Shown here in pieces: positions 18,715 to 33,573 of a stretch of 33,758 nt of DNA. The stretch is from Chitinophagales bacterium (GTDB lineage Bacteria; Bacteroidota; Bacteroidia; Chitinophagales; UBA2359). The DNA lies in contig JAHDDV010000016.1 of the NCBI GenBank assembly GCA_020629205.1, positions 1-33,758 of the forward strand, read 5' to 3'. Below the pieces are notes generated by a model. That model did not search any database, was not told the origin of the DNA, and was given only the letters and a program-made list of their open reading frames with translations. Position numbers and translations under genes: made by a program. Numbering within the stretch: the first letter of the stretch is position 1; every line of letters starts with the position of its first letter.

Positions 18715-21325
<2,611 letters not shown>

Positions 21326-24209: not shown

Positions 24210-26237
24210 CTACATCATGTCATTTAGTATGAAAACACACTCCTGAATGTAAGGGTCTTTCAAAAGTTCTTCACGCAAGCGCTCCCTTTGAAGTTTTAGG
24301 ATTTCCTTGTCTCCTCGATTGTTTGGTACGATGACCTCGGCTTGCATACTGGCAATGGTCCCATTGTCCCTGGCGATCCGCAGTGCTTCTTCTTGTCGTT
24401 TCTTTTGTTCAGCCACGAATGTTGAGAAATCCAGAGATCGACTGCTCTCGCTCAGCTCCGCGGCAAGCATTTTTCCTCTTTCTCTTGCCTTTTGAAAGGC
24501 CGGGCTTTTGCCAGTCCGAGTTTCACTGTGATCCCGTAATCTTGCGATGTTTCTAACCGTGTTGACTGATTGTGTTAGATCTTGACGCTCTAGACTCACT
24601 GCTTGGAGAGCATATTTTCCGGCACGCTCACCGCTGGGGACATAGTTGAAGTTATCTGGCAGTACTAGATCTGGGACAATGCCATTGTACTGCGGAGATC
24701 TCCCACTTGCAGTGAAGAAATTCCCCACCGTAAGTTTCACCTGTCCAATGGCTTGTTCGCTGCTGTCAGAAGACATCACGTCAAAGAAACGTTGTATGCT
24801 ACCCTTTCCATAAGTCTGCTGACTACCAACGAGCAGTGCCCTTCTGTAATCTCTCAAAGTCCCCGCGGTCAATTCTGATGCGGAGCTGCTACGTCCATTC
24901 GTCATGATGAGCAAGTGCCCATTGTAAATAACTTGTCCGTCTTCATTCCAAATTTTGCTGACTTCTCCATCTCTGTATCTGCTCTGCATTGCAAGGGCAT
25001 CTTCAAGGAAGTAGCCGATGATTTCCGCTGCTTCACGTGCCGAGCCTCCCTGATTGTTGCGCAAATCGAGAATCAGCCCCTCGATGCCTTTTTCATTGAT
25101 GGCTCGAAGTTCTTGCAACACATGCATGGCAGCTCCTTCATTGCCCATATAGAATCTCGGTAATCGAAGATAAGCAACTGGCAAATCTGCAGCTTTATCA
25201 GAAAGTACAAATGAGCTGGCTGTTTCCAATTGTACCGCTCCTCGCTCAAGCCCTAGATTGAGGATTGTCTGATTGTCTCGCAATACTTTTACCGCGACTT
25301 CGCTTCCCTTTTCTCCCTTCAGCATCGCGATAGTCTCATCAAGTGTTTGACCACCAACATCCCGAAGCTCGCCATTGCTATCTGCTATGCGCATTATTAC
25401 ATCACCGGCTTGGAGCAGTCCGGCCTTCCAGGCCGGCCCTCCGATAATTAGTTCGCTTATTTTTGGATAGTCTTTCTCCAATTCAATCCGGGCACCGATT
25501 CCAACGAATTCTCTGGTGTAAGCTGCCGTCCAATCAGACTTGCTCTCTAAAGACATATAGTAGGACTGATGATCCTGCACCTGCAAATAAGAGCTTGCCA
25601 GTAATTCGAGAAAATTAGGGATGGAATTGAGCTTTGTATTTGTCTGTTGGATCAGTCTTGCTTTGACTTTTTCAAATGAGGACTTCTTTAGCTCATCAAA
25701 ATCGAGATGGTCCGCTATTAGTTGTTCCTTGAATAGCTGATCTTGCCATCTGCGGCGCAGTTCTTGTTCCCAGACCAGAAGCAAGTCCGATCGCTTTTCG
25801 GGGCGCTTTCTCTTTTCGGCCATTGTTTCCAATTGCTCTTTCTTGCTAAAGGCAATTTCCTTATGGGCAGCGGTTTCGTAATAGTTGAGCAGATTGTTCA
25901 GGGCACTTTTATAGTCCTCAGCAGCCAGATCTACAAGCAGACGCTCTCCTTCAGAAGGGGCTTTTTGCAAAGTGGGCAAAATCTCTTCCCACTCTGTTAA
26001 GTCCTTCCTACTAAAGAGCATTTTTTCCTGATCAATTTCAGCAATGAATTCTTGTAGGAATTCCATGCAAAGGTCCTTGTTCCATTCTTTGGGGTTCAAG
26101 TGGTTTTCTTCACATAGCTCTTTAGCTTGCAAAAGAACTTGGAGTCCTTCCTGGCTTGGTTTATCAGGCTGTCCATGGCAGGAATAAGCAAATAGCAAAA
26201 GACTCAGAATTGAAAGTTGGCGAAACAGAGGCATCAT
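24210..26237 (-). CDS. prc: Carboxy-terminal processing protease (Prc/Tsp-type, S41), lipoprotein
   Basis: This periplasmic serine protease degrades or trims proteins from their C-termini. The 675 residues match the long Prc/Tsp form. Parts in order: lipoprotein signal peptide (FAYSC, Cys20), a helical N-terminal domain, a PDZ domain (about 235-330; FVGIGARIEL, GPAWKAGLLQAGDVIM), the S41 core with LRLPRFYMG and LDLRNNQGG, the catalytic Ser452 in RSSSASE and Lys478 in TYGKGS, and a C-terminal tail (DUF3340-like). The dyad spacing (26) is close to the 25 of E. coli Prc Ser452/Lys477. It is transcribed divergently from the Kazal-containing secreted protein. Direct inhibition by that neighbour is not expected, because Kazal domains target S1/S8 proteases. 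Confidence 0.93.
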   Translation of the reverse strand: MMPLFRQLSILSLLLFAYSCHGQPDKPSQEGLQVLLQAKELCEENHLNPKEWNKDLCMEFLQEFIAEIDQEKMLFSRKDLTEWEEILPTLQKAPSEGERLLVDLAAEDYKSALNNLLNYYETAAHKEIAFSKKEQLETMAEKRKRPEKRSDLLLVWEQELRRRWQDQLFKEQLIADHLDFDELKKSSFEKVKARLIQQTNTKLNSIPNFLELLASSYLQVQDHQSYYMSLESKSDWTAAYTREFVGIGARIELEKDYPKISELIIGGPAWKAGLLQAGDVIMRIADSNGELRDVGGQTLDETIAMLKGEKGSEVAVKVLRDNQTILNLGLERGAVQLETASSFVLSDKAADLPVAYLRLPRFYMGNEGAAMHVLQELRAINEKGIEGLILDLRNNQGGSAREAAEIIGYFLEDALAMQSRYRDGEVSKIWNEDGQVIYNGHLLIMTNGRSSSASELTAGTLRDYRRALLVGSQQTYGKGSIQRFFDVMSSDSSEQAIGQVKLTVGNFFTASGRSPQYNGIVPDLVLPDNFNYVPSGERAGKYALQAVSLERQDLTQSVNTVRNIARLRDHSETRTGKSPAFQKARERGKMLAAELSESSRSLDFSTFVAEQKKRQEEALRIARDNGTIASMQAEVIVPNNRGDKEILKLQRERLREELLKDPYIQECVFILNDMM

Positions 26238-26417: not shown

Positions 26418-29400
26418 ATGAACAGTAGAATTTTATGCTTATTACTGGCCTCATTGGCTTTTGGTCAGAGCACTTATGCTATCGATTTTTTTCTCAACAC
26501 GGTCATTGACGTCACAGATGATGCGGGGAAGATTTACATGAACAACGAAGGTACTTTGATTGGCTCAAGTCATAAGGGACTAATCAACTACGATGAGTAT
26601 GAACTTGGTTGGTACGGCAACCTTGACGATTCGGCTGGTAACTACCACAGGCCATTGTACACAGATCAAACCGAGTTTGGATTGCGAAGGGCAATTTATC
26701 ATGTTTCTACTGGATCAGAAGGTGGAACAAAGCTTATCAAATGGGACCCCAATGGTCAGCTTCACTCAGAGTTTTCAACTTTGAATTTTGACCTTCATGC
26801 CCGATGGGGCATTCAGAAGATTGACGAGGACACCTTTGTTGGTCTACATAGCTGGACCAGCAATTTGATCATTTTTGATTCGGAACTCAATGTCCTCAGC
26901 ATTACGGAATTGCCGAAAATTCACGCTGCCTACTCACGAAACGGAATTCTTCTGGATAGTGCAGGAAACATTCAGATTTTTGGAACGGATGTAGATGCCT
27001 CTGCTGATCCCGAGTTTACTGGAGATGTTTATCGCTATGTGGTAAACACAGATGGTGAAATTCTTAGCGAAAGTCTGGTAGGGAATCATCCACATGTGGT
27101 GAGCCCAGTACTTTTTGATGATCAGTCATTTTGGTTGATAGGTGGCGATTTTGAAGATGAGACCCCAGTGATCAAGGTTCATAGCTACGATGCAAATAGC
27201 AACTTCCTGGACAGCTCTTCAGTCCTTCCTCCATTCTCAGTGGCAAATCCAGGAGGCGCAGAAGTGCTTCCTCAGAATGTCAGTGTCGATAAGATTTTGC
27301 TGTCTTCAGACGGTTCGATCAATCTGCTGATCACCGCCAATGGCGAGGTATATCCACCTTCTCCAAGCCTACCTCCTGCAGTTGAGCAGCAAATGTTTGT
27401 GCAACTTGATCAGGATGTTGAAATTACGTTTGTTGACAATATGACCGCTAACCACCTTGTTCAGGTGAATGACATGATAGAAGATATTTATGGCACTATA
27501 GTTATGTTTGGTAACACAGGTAGCCCATTCTACGATTTGAATCCTAAGATCACAATTTTGCAGTATGGGGATATGGATTCCACTCCAAACCCGAATACGC
27601 TCTATGCGTGTGAGGGGCAAACTGTGGGAATACCTTACCCTGTATTGCCTACAGCCTTAGCGACTTGCTATAATTCTCCTCAAGAGGTTGTCGTGAATCC
27701 GGGAGGTCTTGTATTTGCAGAAGGCGAGGAGTTTGTGCTTGTAGCTCCAACGACAACGACGACGTATACGGTTACTATGAACATTGATTCATCGCTTGAT
27801 CCCGATTGCGATGAAGGAGTTTTTGAATACACAGTGGAGGTAGAAGTCAACGATTGTACGCCAAACCAAATTACTACCTGTCCTGGTGTAGCAGTTCCCC
27901 TTCCTGCTCCTCCTGTAGCGGAAGCCCCGGGACCGGGAAATCAATGTTTGTTTCAAAATCCAGAGATCACCGTAGAGCCAAATGTCGCAGTGATTTCGGC
28001 CAATGATGAAGATGGCTATTGGTTTGCTCCGCTGGAAACAACGACTTATACGATCACCAGAACCTATCCGGGTACACCTACTTGTCCGCCAGTAACTAGT
28101 TCCCTAACGAACACAATATATGTGGAGTTTGGGCCAGATTGTCCAGACCCTAACGGTCAACAAATTGTAGTGCCTGGCTATCCCTGGATCTCTGATGTGC
28201 TGAGTGGCGCAGGCTGTGAATCTTATTCGGAAGTATGGAAATATACTAGTGCGGGATACGACTATATCTACCTCAAGGCTGTTGCAGGCACGGGAGTGAG
28301 TTCAAAGCTTTATAATGAATCTGGTCAACTTTATTGTACTGAAACGGGCTCCTATGATTGCATTGCCGCCTATGGTTTTGCTTCAGGTACGAAGCTGTTT
28401 TCTTGTACTGATCCTCAGGAATGCAATTGTGAAGCAGGTGGAACTGTTGTCTGCGGGGCAGACGGTCAGGAGTACGAGAATGCTTGTTTTGCAGACTGCT
28501 TTGGTGTTGCCTATGTTAGCGGACCCTGCGGTGTAGTCGAGCCTCCAAGCGATGGATTGGAAGATTATCCATGGGTCGGTGATATCTTTAACCTCTCAAA
28601 TTGCTTCTCCATCAATGAAGTAACCCTCTACACTAGTGGTAGCTACGAGTATCTATACTTTGAGGTTCCGAATGGAAACAATGTCCTGTACAATGCAAGC
28701 GGACAACTCTACTGCACCGAATCAGGTACTTATGACTGTGTCGCCGCCTATGGATTCACTCAAGGGGAAAGCATTTGGACTTGTGTACAACCACCAATCT
28801 GTGATTGCGGATCGGTTTATGTTCCGGTATGCGCCAATGGAATCGAATACTTTAATTCTTGTGAAGCGGAATGTGATGGCTACTTTGATTGGACTCCTGG
28901 AACTTGTCCGGATGGACCTGGTCCGACAGAAGAATACCCTTGGCTTACAGATATATTGTCAGGTTCTAGTTGTTGTGAAGTACAAAACATTGTGCTGTAC
29001 GAAAGCAATGGATTTGAATACATTTACGTGATCCCGCAACTTGCTTGTGGCGAAGGAACTTTGTACAATGCTCAAGGCCAGTATTACTGTGAAACTGTTG
29101 GTACTTACAATTGCCTGGATCTATATGGCTTCACGCAAGGTGTGGAATTGTACTCTTGTGATGGCAGTGGACCAGATCCAGTGGACTGTGACAACGGGAC
29201 ATTTGGTACGGCTACAATCGGAGGCTGTGGTATAGCGGCAACTTTGGCCATTCAGTTGCCAACAGGTGAATACTTGTACCCAACCGATGGTTTCCCAGAC
29301 GGTTTTACTTTAGATGAACCCACGGATGTCTTCTTTACTTTTGAATACACGGGAGACGATTTTTGCGATGGTGTACTGATTGATTTGATTTGCATGATTC

Positions 29401-29951
29401 CTGCCAATATCGATCCTCCTGATGAGTGGTTTGGAGCTTATACTTGGTTGCCTTCCGTTTTGGGTGGAGAACCTGACTGCTGCACTGTCTCATCTGTATG
29501 GGAATATACGAATGGAAGCACTTCCTACATTGTCTTAAATCCAGATGGTGAATGCGGAGGAGATCCGGTACTGTACAACAGCAGCGGTCAGCTCTACTGT
29601 AGCTCCCAACCTGGATATGATTGCATCAGTCTTTATGGATTGAACAGCTGGACAACGAATGTTCTTTGGTCCTGCTCAGGAAAGGAGGGCTTGATCGCTA
29701 TCGACGAAGACAGCTATCTGTACGACCTGGCAGTCTACCCGAATCCTAGCAATGGTCAAGTAAACGTGACGGTGCAAGGAGAATTAGATGAGGCCCAACT
29801 ACAGGTTATAGACCTTAGTGGCAAGCTAGTGTATCAGGACCAAGTGCAAGCGACAAACTACCTGAGTCTAGAACATCTCAATCCCGGAATGTACTTGCTG
29901 CAAGTCATTCACCAGAAGCAGGTTTTGGTGGAAAAGATTTTGATTGAGTAG
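26418..29951 (+). CDS. Large T9SS-secreted protein with Kazal-like domains and a novel Cys-containing repeat
   Basis: This 1177-residue exported protein has a signal peptide (1-21). Residues about 22-395 are of unrecognised, possibly propeller-like nature. Two Ig/PKD-like segments follow (about 396-580, each beginning with a CEG/CPG turn and containing TTTYT.T). A ~75-residue repeat then occurs four times (starting about 588, 717, 840 and 1008), with the pattern YPW..DIL, a Cys, Y.YIY, LYN..GQLYC, TYDC...YGF and a closing SC. Two Kazal-like domains (about 667-702 and 794-829; VCGADGQEYENAC and VCANGIEYFNSC) separate repeats 1/2 and 2/3, and a further ~85-residue Cys-containing segment separates 3/4. 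A type A sorting domain closes the protein (LAVYPNPSNGQVNV). Kazal domains inhibit serine proteases of the trypsin/subtilisin type, so a protective or anti-predator role is possible but unproven. Confidence 0.87.
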   Translation: MNSRILCLLLASLAFGQSTYAIDFFLNTVIDVTDDAGKIYMNNEGTLIGSSHKGLINYDEYELGWYGNLDDSAGNYHRPLYTDQTEFGLRRAIYHVSTGSEGGTKLIKWDPNGQLHSEFSTLNFDLHARWGIQKIDEDTFVGLHSWTSNLIIFDSELNVLSITELPKIHAAYSRNGILLDSAGNIQIFGTDVDASADPEFTGDVYRYVVNTDGEILSESLVGNHPHVVSPVLFDDQSFWLIGGDFEDETPVIKVHSYDANSNFLDSSSVLPPFSVANPGGAEVLPQNVSVDKILLSSDGSINLLITANGEVYPPSPSLPPAVEQQMFVQLDQDVEITFVDNMTANHLVQVNDMIEDIYGTIVMFGNTGSPFYDLNPKITILQYGDMDSTPNPNTLYACEGQTVGIPYPVLPTALATCYNSPQEVVVNPGGLVFAEGEEFVLVAPTTTTTYTVTMNIDSSLDPDCDEGVFEYTVEVEVNDCTPNQITTCPGVAVPLPAPPVAEAPGPGNQCLFQNPEITVEPNVAVISANDEDGYWFAPLETTTYTITRTYPGTPTCPPVTSSLTNTIYVEFGPDCPDPNGQQIVVPGYPWISDVLSGAGCESYSEVWKYTSAGYDYIYLKAVAGTGVSSKLYNESGQLYCTETGSYDCIAAYGFASGTKLFSCTDPQECNCEAGGTVVCGADGQEYENACFADCFGVAYVSGPCGVVEPPSDGLEDYPWVGDIFNLSNCFSINEVTLYTSGSYEYLYFEVPNGNNVLYNASGQLYCTESGTYDCVAAYGFTQGESIWTCVQPPICDCGSVYVPVCANGIEYFNSCEAECDGYFDWTPGTCPDGPGPTEEYPWLTDILSGSSCCEVQNIVLYESNGFEYIYVIPQLACGEGTLYNAQGQYYCETVGTYNCLDLYGFTQGVELYSCDGSGPDPVDCDNGTFGTATIGGCGIAATLAIQLPTGEYLYPTDGFPDGFTLDEPTDVFFTFEYTGDDFCDGVLIDLICMIPANIDPPDEWFGAYTWLPSVLGGEPDCCTVSSVWEYTNGSTSYIVLNPDGECGGDPVLYNSSGQLYCSSQPGYDCISLYGLNSWTTNVLWSCSGKEGLIAIDEDSYLYDLAVYPNPSNGQVNVTVQGELDEAQLQVIDLSGKLVYQDQVQATNYLSLEHLNPGMYLLQVIHQKQVLVEKILIE

Positions 29952-30120: not shown

Positions 30121-30801
30121 TTATTCAATCCGAATCCGTTTCAAACCCTCTCCGAAGACATTCGCTTTCATCCGAGATTCCAATGCCTGGTAATCCGGAC
30201 GATGAACGATCTCTTGTACCTTGCCTTTAGATAAAAGCACCATTTCGTCACAAGACTCTCGCAGCGTTGAAAAAATATGGGAAGAAATTAAAACCGTTTT
30301 GTTCAAGCTTTTCAACTCCTCGATAATCTCCGTAATAATCATATTGCTCTGTATGTCCACCCCATTGAAGGGTTCATCCAAGATAAAGATGTCATTTTTG
30401 CGTAGTAACAAGCCCATTAATGCCAATTTCTTTTTCATCCCGGTAGAATAGCTCTCAGCATACTGCTGTAGAGGTAGACCAAAGGTGTTTTGTTCCTCGA
30501 AATCTTCGGTGTCAATCTTGCGAGCGGCGCACATAAGCTTTAAATACTCCCATCCGGTCATATAGGACATGAATATCGGATTCGTCTCCAGATAGCCTAG
30601 ATGATTTTTCAGTACCTCATATGGGGAGGAGATAGCTCCTTGATGAGATTCCAATCCTGCGATACACTTAAATAAGGTCGTTTTGCCAGCCCCATTTTCA
30701 CCTACAATCCCATATACACGACCCGCGGCGAAGCTCAGGTCAATCTTCTCCAAAGCTAACTTTCTACCGTAGTATTTGCTGACATTCTTGAGCACAATCA
30801 T
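30121..30801 (-). CDS. ABC transporter ATP-binding protein
   Basis: This 226-residue ATPase energises the membrane protein encoded just upstream. It has Walker A GENGAGKTT (34-42), a signature loop YSTGMKKKLALM in place of the canonical LSGGQ (common in ABC-2-type exporters), Walker B IFILDEPFNGVD and the H-loop LISSHIF. The ORF track begins at 31050, but the first 83 residues of that ORF overlap the permease in another frame and are not ABC-like. The ATG at 30801 gives the standard start MIVLKNVSKYYG and overlaps the permease stop as ATGA, a sign of coupled translation. The substrate is unknown; efflux is more likely than import since no binding protein is present. Confidence 0.93.
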   Translation of the reverse strand: MIVLKNVSKYYGRKLALEKIDLSFAAGRVYGIVGENGAGKTTLFKCIAGLESHQGAISSPYEVLKNHLGYLETNPIFMSYMTGWEYLKLMCAARKIDTEDFEEQNTFGLPLQQYAESYSTGMKKKLALMGLLLRKNDIFILDEPFNGVDIQSNMIITEIIEELKSLNKTVLISSHIFSTLRESCDEMVLLSKGKVQEIVHRPDYQALESRMKANVFGEGLKRIRIE

Positions 30802-31715
30802 TGCAGAAAGGATTTTAGAGACTTCTTCGATTTGGAATAGAAAACCATCATAGCAATCAAGAGCAGAGGAGGAAAAAGCAGACTCACTGAATAGAAGATC
30901 CCTTGAGCAATACTGATCTCGAATGGAAAAGCCGCATATTTGGCGAGTATCATTGAGCCCACGAGCATGTGACCACCAAAGTACACCAATAGTGTCACAA
31001 GCCACTGACTTGGGAATGCTAGTAGGAGCGCTAGCAAAACAGGCAGGCACAGGAAGCTCAGGCAGATGACTGAAAGCAGGAGCTTATGCTTTAAGAAGGC
31101 TTTTGGTTTATGGGCGTATATCCAGACATAATACTCGTACTCAGGTTTTTGATAATAAAACATGCTCGTGATCATAATCATCGCAATAGCGAATAGACCT
31201 AGGTTGTAGTTCTCAACCTGAGTGCTGGTAAAGACGAGGAAGTAGGCCAGCAAGATGATCCAAAAGGTTTTTCTAAAACCAACAATAAACTCAAAGGAAA
31301 GCTTTTTGAACGGAGTCGGAATGGATTTAGACCAAGGCCACTTTGCCTTGAAAAATGCAAATACAAAGAGCAATGGTATTGTGATCAGGGCCGGAATAAA
31401 TGCTTGTTCATACCAGAGAAAGCATTGAAATGGCAGGCAAACCGCAGCATTTTCCAGCATTCTAAGCACGAAGTGTTGTTTTTTGGAAAAAGTGTTTTGC
31501 AGATTTCCGATTCTTCTGGATTCTCCAAGTTGGATTAGTAATGCCATCAGTATCAATAGGTAAATCCACCCTGCATAAGCAAGCTTGAGGAACAAGACTT
31601 TTGAAAAAGCAACAAAGAGGATCAGCCCAAGCGTGATCCCGATCAAAGGCGGGATCTTCATGGATCTAAAATACCTGCAGAGTCGGCTTGCCTGTAGTTG
31701 GAAGTAGTATTTCAT
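30798..31715 (-). CDS. Polytopic membrane protein, likely ABC exporter permease
   Basis: This 305-residue inner-membrane protein has about eight hydrophobic segments (for example IGITLGLILFVAFS, WIYLLILMALLIQL, FWIILLAYFLVF, LLLALLLAFP, LLFPPLLLIAMMVFY) separated by basic loops. I do not recognise the family by motif. Its place, directly upstream of and overlapping by 4 bases with an ABC ATPase, makes it the probable membrane-spanning half of the transporter. No signal peptide or large periplasmic domain is seen. The gene begins a two-gene operon; its upstream region holds repeat copy D. Confidence 0.82.
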   Translation of the reverse strand: MKYYFQLQASRLCRYFRSMKIPPLIGITLGLILFVAFSKVLFLKLAYAGWIYLLILMALLIQLGESRRIGNLQNTFSKKQHFVLRMLENAAVCLPFQCFLWYEQAFIPALITIPLLFVFAFFKAKWPWSKSIPTPFKKLSFEFIVGFRKTFWIILLAYFLVFTSTQVENYNLGLFAIAMIMITSMFYYQKPEYEYYVWIYAHKPKAFLKHKLLLSVICLSFLCLPVLLALLLAFPSQWLVTLLVYFGGHMLVGSMILAKYAAFPFEISIAQGIFYSVSLLFPPLLLIAMMVFYSKSKKSLKSFLQ

Positions 31716-32007: not shown

Positions 32008-33381
32008 TTAGGCCTTAACTAATAGATTTGATTCAGCAGTTTCTCCAAGTTGATCAACGCTTTGCTCTTTGATTGCCACTTTATCCTGGGCCTTTGAAAA
32101 CCGCACATTATACAGGATGGGAATGGACAGAAAGAGCGGTACTTGAAACAAATAGCTAAAGGGAATAAAAACAAAACTGTAGAAGATTAGGAGATAGCAT
32201 TTGAGTGCGATCAGGAAGTAGATCTTGACATTGAGCTCCCGTTTTCTGTAGTACAGATATCCAAGTAAGATGAAGATTGCGGTCAGCAAGCAAATGGATA
32301 GATGAAAGGCTTTGGCGAACTTCAAGCGCTCTGGAATGGACCTTTCCTCCGCTTTGTAATCGAAGAAATGCAGGGCCATGCCCAGTCCCTGCTCCAGGTG
32401 AAAGGGCTTGCTGTCAGCCTGACTGGGGAATGCTGGCCTCCAGGCATGCGCACTATGGTTCTCATAGTAGGCAAGTCCCTTGCTAAAGGTGCTGAAGTCC
32501 TTGGATAGGAAAGGGGCAACATACAGCAAAGCAATTCCCAGTGCCAGGATGATGGAGGTTTTGAAGATCTTGGGAAAGCCGAATTCTATCCATATGGTAA
32601 TCAAATATACTGGCAACCAAAAGGTAAAACTGTAGCGGGACAGAAGACAGACGAGGATGCCTATTGAGATGATCCATATGTTTCGACGGAAAAGACTCAG
32701 GGAGAGCAGGAAGTAGAAAGCTACAGGAAGCAGCTCTACCGTCATGCCTAGAACGGCAGCATCAAATTGGGTATAGAGATAGACAAACAGAAAAGGAATG
32801 AACAGTTTGATACCAATCTCGATGGGATGAAAATTTGACTTTAGTAGTAATCTAAGATAGAGAAAGATGGCCAGCATAAAGAAAATGTAAGGAGTCCATC
32901 TATAGTCGATATTTGCTGTCTCGGAAACGAGGTAGGGCGACCATAACAGCGGAAGATAGGTCGGGTACATTTCGTATTTCTCAAAATGCATCACAGCGTA
33001 TACGGGCTCATAATTGAGAAAGCGAGCAACATACAATTGTAAAGAAGGGATGATATCGGAAATAGCGGGATCTATGGGGATCTTAGTAAACACCTTGTTC
33101 ATGAAATTGCCGCACCAGTAGCCAAAAATGACGAATAGCAAGCAGAAAATTAATAACTTAGGGATCTTGATTTTCGATGGGAAGCTGGTCATATCTTCCT
33201 TTTGAAAGCCGGAAATCACGAAAGCTACAAGACAAAACAGCAGTCCTGATACTAGTGCGAGAACTGGGGAAACATAGGGGCCAAAATAGTTTTTCCAATA
33301 GCTGTGCATTCCAAGTTCAAGGGCGAGAATCAAGATTAGAAAAATCTTGAGAAGCAGGGTAGTCTTCTTGCTTAGGGGCAT
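32008..33381 (-). CDS. Polytopic membrane protein, possibly GT-C-type glycosyltransferase
   Basis: This is a 457-residue inner-membrane protein with roughly 10-12 hydrophobic helices. After the first helices an extracytoplasmic loop carries an acidic Ser-Asp (PAISDIIPSL) followed by YEPVYAVMHFEKYEMYPTYLPLLWSPY. The order (an Asp, then a P-Y turn, then Y-P-x-L-x-L before the next helix) resembles GT-C enzymes of the GT87/DUF2029 kind that use polyprenyl-linked sugars. This is only a resemblance. The ORF track starts at 33483; the first 34 residues are polar and unlike a membrane protein start, and the Met at 33381 (MPLSKKTTLLLKIFLIL) is a better start. No linked glycan-synthesis genes are in the window. 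Confidence 0.72.
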   Translation of the reverse strand: MPLSKKTTLLLKIFLILILALELGMHSYWKNYFGPYVSPVLALVSGLLFCLVAFVISGFQKEDMTSFPSKIKIPKLLIFCLLFVIFGYWCGNFMNKVFTKIPIDPAISDIIPSLQLYVARFLNYEPVYAVMHFEKYEMYPTYLPLLWSPYLVSETANIDYRWTPYIFFMLAIFLYLRLLLKSNFHPIEIGIKLFIPFLFVYLYTQFDAAVLGMTVELLPVAFYFLLSLSLFRRNIWIISIGILVCLLSRYSFTFWLPVYLITIWIEFGFPKIFKTSIILALGIALLYVAPFLSKDFSTFSKGLAYYENHSAHAWRPAFPSQADSKPFHLEQGLGMALHFFDYKAEERSIPERLKFAKAFHLSICLLTAIFILLGYLYYRKRELNVKIYFLIALKCYLLIFYSFVFIPFSYLFQVPLFLSIPILYNVRFSKAQDKVAIKEQSVDQLGETAESNLLVKA

Positions 33382-33573
33382 TGCAATTAGGTATGAATGT
33401 AAATATTTGATTAAATTCGATTGATTCGGGTTGAATGTGGAGCACCTTAGGTTCCTGTAAGTATTAGCAGGAATTCTGCTCACATAGATTACGGATTTGC
33501 TTTTGATTCAGTTGCCTTGATATCAGGAGAAAAAACTCAATTTGAGCTGCGGCTCTTTCATCCGAGAATAATT

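Follow-up and report, generated by a model that had tools for sequence, protein, structure and literature searches.

DUF6970 (PF22311) is a widespread Bacteroidota domain of unknown function, about 78–80 amino acids long, whose classical members are single-domain proteins. Kazal domains of the type found in leech-derived tryptase inhibitor (LDTI; PF07648/PF00050; 1ldt, 2kmo) carry six cysteines, and animal proteins such as agrin, follistatin, rhodniin and infestin contain several Kazal domains, sometimes alternating with other Cys-rich modules. The Kazal-like modules of follistatin-type proteins have a structural role and are not inhibitory. Gingipains and other C25 peptidases exported by the type IX secretion system (T9SS) carry C-terminal adhesin domains. 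Here, a stretch of 33,758 nucleotides from an uncultured, Saprospiraceae-type Chitinophagales bacterium (GenBank assembly GCA_020629205.1, contig JAHDDV010000016.1, positions 1 to 33,758; hereafter 'the window') was analyzed with respect to a single gene, whose product, P0001, is a mosaic T9SS cargo protein in which four copies of a Cys-containing repeat alternate with two LDTI-type Kazal domains and one further β domain. On the sequence evidence, the repeat is a divergent, disulfide-armoured relative of DUF6970, and not a member of that family by its curated cut-off.

Within the limits of the library searched, no paper on DUF6970 was retrieved, and neither Kazal domains of Saprospiraceae nor the phrase 'bacterial Kazal' gave a result; for bacterial Kunitz domains in the Saprospiraceae-type group the literature was likewise empty. 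Kazal and Kunitz domains of bacteria seem to have received little attention.

Four copies of a conserved Cys-containing repeat

A preliminary description, made from the DNA letters, had placed four repeats at about residues 588, 717, 840 and 1008 of P0001, each with a final SC. A Y[PT]W motif was found at exactly these residues, in each case opening a repeat of 73–79 amino acids, and every copy ends in SC or TC. Profiles built from three of the repeats recovered the fourth with 93, 83, 81 and 59 bits; the highest score among 1000 shuffles for each was 9–13 bits, and the repeats are therefore not a product of chance. In the fetched loci, an iterated search from the four repeats recovered over 200 copies, and at least 142 distinct strong copies were counted.

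Four cysteines are universal, being present in 141 of 142 distinct copies. An optional pair, made up of an extra cysteine adjacent to the first universal one and another in the loop that precedes LY, was found complete in 48 copies, wholly absent from 88 and represented by a single cysteine in four (Fisher p 1e-32, a value that treats related copies as independent, which they are not). The universal cysteines and the co-occurring extra pair thus point to two conserved disulfides and one optional disulfide. The pairing is likely to be C55–C63 and C16–C78 (numbering of alignment A1), the former ancestral and the latter a new staple, since DUF6970 keeps only the middle pair.

Structure prediction on one repeat, a check proposed in the preliminary description, gave a confident AlphaFold2 (AF2) model of repeat 3 (82 amino acids, 75-row alignment), with a predicted local distance difference test score (pLDDT) of 93.5 and a predicted template modelling score (pTM) of 0.84. 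The predicted fold is α/β, with a helix at 6–12, strands at 21–27, 30–36, 45–48 and 53–56, a second helix at 63–67 and a final strand at 73–77, giving an α-β4-α-β topology. Conserved aromatic residues occupy positions W6, Y25, Y47, Y54 and Y67. Foldseek searches with this model against the PDB and against viral models gave no hit at E 0.001, so that no solved relative is on hand; note, however, that short models yield weak E-values, and the missing match is therefore not proof of a new fold. A profile match to the Ricin-type β-trefoil (CBM13; 3a21/1knl; C-terminal motif C-L-D-x-Y-G...W-x-C) covered 24 residues only, at E 0.002, and was ruled out because the AF2 fold is α/β and Foldseek gave no trefoil.

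Relationship of the repeat to DUF6970

The repeat had initially been called unfamiliar, and this holds in so far as no curated model claims it. Pfam returned no family for repeats 2–4 and a match of 13.9 bits (E 0.049) to DUF6970 for repeat 1, and all four window repeats fall below the curated PF22311 cut-off of 27 bits. The repeat is nevertheless connected to DUF6970 through intermediates. Single-domain DUF6970 proteins were reached in the second iteration of the search at E about 2e-5, and two stretches are significant to both models: one in the source genome (G000:C239:4139-4375; 45.4 bits with PF22311, above its cut-off, and 27.7 bits, E 1.5e-5, with the repeat-only profile A3) and a second at G003:C8:10780-11025 (29.5 bits with PF22311, likewise above the cut-off, and 24.4 bits with the repeat-only profile). 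DUF6970 was matched by 8 of 75 members, a set that includes one classical DUF6970 put in deliberately, and no other Pfam family was matched by more than one. A direct hhalign comparison of the repeat with DUF6970 profiles that included L080 and L081 gave E 1.6e-5 and a probability of 79%, a value that is significant for one comparison taken by itself.

The two families are alike in length and in the order of their motifs (W..I helix, Y.Y strand, VYYI strand, LYD..G..IC, C, LIW), and share two cysteines, that of the IC motif and the next one. The window repeats differ in having two additional universal cysteines, the first and the last, in lacking the CCDQ and PDGG..G.GDG.C signatures, and in occurring as multiple copies in an exported protein rather than as a single domain. 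No solved DUF6970-like structure turned up in profile and Foldseek searches.

It could be that the repeat represents a new domain unrelated to DUF6970, and that the likeness stems from short motifs rich in Cys, Tyr and Gly. The failure of every window repeat to pass the PF22311 cut-off would fit this, as would the weak outcome of one direct comparison: with classical DUF6970 profiles lacking L080 and L081, hhalign gave a probability of 25% and E 7.6e-4, so that kinship rests on the intermediates. However, those intermediates are significant to two independent models, DUF6970 is the sole Pfam family to recur among the members, and the motifs are collinear from the W..I helix to LIW. An independent origin is accordingly regarded as very improbable.

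Architecture of P0001

An open reading frame (ORF) that encodes 1177 amino acids and starts with ATG was confirmed for P0001. Its features, in window coordinates, are as follows.

26418..29951, + strand: whole gene, T9SS-exported mosaic protein P0001, 1177 amino acids (ORF; Por_Secre_tail)
26418..26483, + strand: probable signal peptide, residues 1–22 (by eye, from the sequence)
26484..28157, + strand: N-terminal half, residues 23–580, no match in a Pfam search
28179..28406, + strand: repeat 1, residues 588–663, divergent DUF6970-like module (PF22311 match; leave-one-out profile)
28422..28529, + strand: Kazal domain 1, residues 669–704, predicted P1 Ala in C-E-A-G (profile match to LDTI)
28566..28784, + strand: repeat 2, residues 717–789 (motif; iterated search; leave-one-out profile)
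28800..28907, + strand: Kazal domain 2, residues 795–830, predicted P1 Ser in C-G-S-V (profile match to LDTI)
28935..29159, + strand: repeat 3, residues 840–914, carrying the optional Cys pair; AF2 model described above (motif; leave-one-out profile)
29175..29408, + strand: 'insert', a recurrent all-β domain, residues 920–997 (relatives; no Pfam match; AF2 array model)
29439..29675, + strand: repeat 4, residues 1008–1086 (motif; iterated search; leave-one-out profile)
29733..29945, + strand: T9SS type-A C-terminal sorting domain, residues 1106–1176 (Por_Secre_tail; TIGR04183)

These positions bear out the order repeat-Kazal-repeat-Kazal-repeat-insert-repeat given in the preliminary description, and its proposal of T9SS export was likewise upheld. 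The type-A tail scored 51.9 bits against a Por_Secre_tail cut-off of 27 and 53 bits with TIGR04183, and the T9SS translocon protein SprA is encoded in the source genome (SprA_N, 449 bits); a tail above cut-off together with a T9SS in the genome marks P0001 as type-A cargo. No enzyme domain was recognized in P0001 by Pfam search. Judged by sequence identity, the N-terminal half is less conserved than the array: relatives in genome G001 are 47–49% identical over the array (the four closest) and 31% and 22% identical over the N-terminal half (the two that are comparable). By eye, the final ~190 residues of this half resemble two Ig/PKD-like Cys-containing segments. Matches of the full protein to Ras entries in the PDB were dismissed as low-score chance matches.

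Distribution and protein contexts of the repeat

A wider search for the repeat, also proposed at the outset, located it in 8 of the 20 genomes of the family at up to about 45 copies each (45 in G001, 40 in G017, 22 in G013 and 21 in the source genome) and found it nearly absent beyond, with 2 of about 229 other sampled genomes of the order (G020 and G444) and none elsewhere in the sampled class. Limited candidates per genome were scored in the large samples, so that copy counts there are lower bounds. The named relatives are Saprospiraceae and Chitinophagales metagenome-assembled genomes.

Strong repeats were found in 45 ORFs, some of which end at contig edges; 30 of these also carry Kazal domains and 15 do not. 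Close module pairs were repeat–repeat in 37 cases, repeat–Kazal in 37 and Kazal–repeat in 44. The N-terminal regions of repeat proteins include a C25 peptidase domain in three cases (L032, from the source genome, L049 and L066), an M12B-like peptidase (L060), a VIT-VWA region (L046) and DUF11 (L030). The Kazal-free proteins and the fusions to C25, M12B and VIT/VWA domains show the repeat to be a portable module and not a spacer specific to inhibitors. A tree with several poorly supported forks shows that relatives within one genus mostly share one order of subtypes (R1/R2-type, then R3-type, then R4-type); the architecture is therefore older than the paralogues.

One interpretation of these contexts is that the repeats are targeting modules of secreted enzymes, binding a substrate or surface ligand in the manner of carbohydrate-binding modules or gingipain adhesin domains, with the Kazal domains secondary. 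In the three C25 proteins the repeats lie between the catalytic domain and the T9SS tail, as adhesin domains do in gingipains, and the placement is the same in the M12B-like peptidase; the many conserved aromatic residues would also suit such a role. However, these residues may belong to the core, the C25 fusions are exceptional (the family has more than 100 C25 matches, and 3 of them sit in array proteins), and P0001, unlike the gingipains, has no C25 or other recognized enzyme domain and no adhesin-domain match. Targeting as the main role of the repeats is considered improbable.

Kazal domains

Between the repeats, where Kazal-like domains had been proposed, two segments were found with six cysteines at the spacing C-x-C-x7-C-x9/10-C-x3-C-x9/10-C. 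The first matched LDTI at E 8e-5 in an alignment spanning the first five cysteines, and the second at E 4e-4 across all six; matches to rhodniin and infestin were also returned. Both segments share the LDTI spacing and the Y/F-x-N-x-C-x-A-x-C core, but have Ala and Ser rather than Lys at P1, and they fall below the Pfam cut-off (15.4 against 22.8 bits in the full protein; 19.1 and 13.7 bits alone). Kazal copies in sister proteins exceed the Pfam cut-offs. An AF2 model of the 508-residue array reproduced the Kazal order of strand (95–97), helix (106–111) and strand (116–118), with the helix running from the fourth to the fifth cysteine, at a modest block pLDDT of about 67–78. Compared with the animal multi-domain Kazal proteins, P0001 has a different partner module and is bacterial and T9SS-exported. 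Elsewhere in the source genome, L034 (G000:C239; 2054 amino acids) holds a dozen Kazal domains and three DUF6970 stretches above threshold, and L035 (G000:C355; 1332 amino acids) holds 8 Kazal domains.

In a set of 106 distinct Kazal domains whose loop spans seven residues, the final two positions of the loop are almost always P and V (entropy 0.1–0.7 bits at the loop end), whereas P2, P1 and P1' vary (2.6–3.2 bits). The predicted P1 residue is Ala, Asp, Glu, Thr, Leu or Ser, among others, and is Lys or Arg in none of the 106, so that trypsin is an unlikely target. The missing P1 Lys/Arg is not independent evidence, because these domains hold only 0.3% Lys+Arg overall. The P1 pattern would be as expected if the targets were elastase-, subtilisin- or Glu-specific proteases. 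An inhibitory function of the Kazal domains is plausible.

It could be, then, that the whole protein is a multi-headed secreted serine-protease inhibitor, in which the Kazal domains, joined in sister proteins by Kunitz domains, do the work and the repeats only hold them apart at the cell surface, shielding the cell from foreign proteases or its own. The Kazal domains keep all six cysteines, the canonical CxC-x7-C loop, the P-V-C end and a variable P2/P1/P1', and those of the window match LDTI; some relatives carry 8 to 15 Kazal domains (L034, L035, L062), and the same mosaics also contain Kunitz domains, whose inhibitor fold is unrelated. Set against this are the 15 repeat proteins that lack any Kazal domain, direct repeat–repeat tandems as common as repeat–Kazal pairs, the purely structural follistatin-type modules, and the P1 residues of P0001 itself, Ala (in an atypical E-A-G context) and Ser. 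As an account of the whole protein this is considered rather unlikely.

Insert and Kunitz domains

The insert of P0001 belongs to a recurrent all-β, Cys-containing domain with about 30 relatives among the repeat proteins of the fetched loci, roughly of the pattern C..Y..TG.V.F..C.G..Y.I.L.DG.I.DPY...F...G..V.F.Y......C......D..CI. Neither the window copy nor any of seven relatives matched a Pfam family; the domain may resemble small OB-like lipoprotein domains.

Kunitz domains were found in four genomes, mostly within the same kind of mosaic. Kunitz/BPTI matches of about 66–80 bits occur in L042 (G013:C356), L045 (G020:C24), G017:C226, G017:C301, G020:C62 and G020:C173, and several of the Kunitz-bearing mosaics also hold Kazal, DUF6970 and window-type repeat domains. 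Read by position, the predicted Kunitz P1 residue in mosaics is Glu, Asp, Gln or Leu; a free-standing 89-residue Kunitz copy (L116) has a predicted P1 Lys. A speculative reading, to which little probability is given, makes the repeat a third, unrecognized protease-inhibitor or antiproteolytic module alongside Kazal, Kunitz and insert domains in 'inhibitor mosaics'. If true, Lys/Arg-poor surface mosaics would both resist and block proteases, the cell's own gingipain-type enzymes included.

Neighbouring genes

The divergently transcribed neighbour at 24210–26237 (− strand) encodes a Tsp/Prc-type S41 protease (TSP_NTD, PDZ, Peptidase_S41, DUF3340). At 18715–21325 (+ strand), a FUR-family regulator lies directly upstream of a 726-residue heme peroxidase of catalase-peroxidase size, an ordinary oxidative-stress pair. 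The ORFs at 30798–31715 and 32008–33483 (− strand) had no Pfam or NCBIfam match; the former overlaps an ABC-transporter ATPase ORF (30121–31050) and may be its permease partner. Neither the S41 protease nor the ABC transporter was found as a conserved neighbour in the fetched loci of relatives, which are mostly cut close to the array.

Arrangement and composition of the array

The preliminary description had envisaged a rigid scaffold. The AF2 model of the 508-residue array (9-row alignment) lends this no support, combining good local confidence in the repeats with a pTM of 0.25, and the arrangement in the model looks flexible. Foldseek matches of this model to LGI1/ADAM22 (TM 0.12 or less) were set aside as meaningless for a multi-domain model of uncertain arrangement.

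Lys+Arg make up 1.0% of the window array (5 Lys and no Arg in 510 residues). The corresponding values are 0.9% in the 142 repeats, against 10.8% in single-domain DUF6970 proteins, and 2.8% in the N-terminal parts, with the 106 Kazal domains lower still at the value given above; among other ORFs of the window they are 4–5% in three that look secreted and 8–13% in the remaining ORFs sampled. The simplest reading of this depletion is resistance to trypsin-like or gingipain-like proteases.

Discussion

The account that we consider probable, though well short of certain, is that the repeat is a disulfide-stapled α/β relative of DUF6970 that serves as a portable module of T9SS cargo, forming a flexible, protease-resistant stalk, with Kazal domains that are inhibitory where intact. 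Saprospiraceae-type bacteria would have multiplied the repeat as a C-terminal building block of exported proteins. After export, the array would present the N-terminal domains on an extracellular stalk, made resistant by the two or three disulfides of each module together with an almost complete lack of Lys and Arg; repeat faces may double as recognition units. Where Kazal loops are intact, they would inhibit elastase-type, subtilisin-type or Glu-specific serine proteases and not trypsin-like enzymes, given the predicted P1 residues.

Several points weigh against this account, beside the hhalign comparison described above. The flexibility of the stalk is read from a low pTM obtained with a 9-row alignment, and the Lys/Arg depletion may be a lineage habit of exported proteins rather than the result of selection for resistance. 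The analysis establishes the repeat and its family, the Kazal identity, the T9SS tail, the cysteine pattern, copy number and distribution, whereas disulfide pairing, resistance, recognition and inhibition are inferred.

The repeat defines a structurally confident domain family that current Pfam has missed and that is now linked to DUF6970. It offers direct tests of the function of a DUF6970-type module and of bacterial Kazal domains, in a bacterial family whose T9SS cargo combines Kazal, Kunitz and Cys-stapled modules into mosaics like those of animals.

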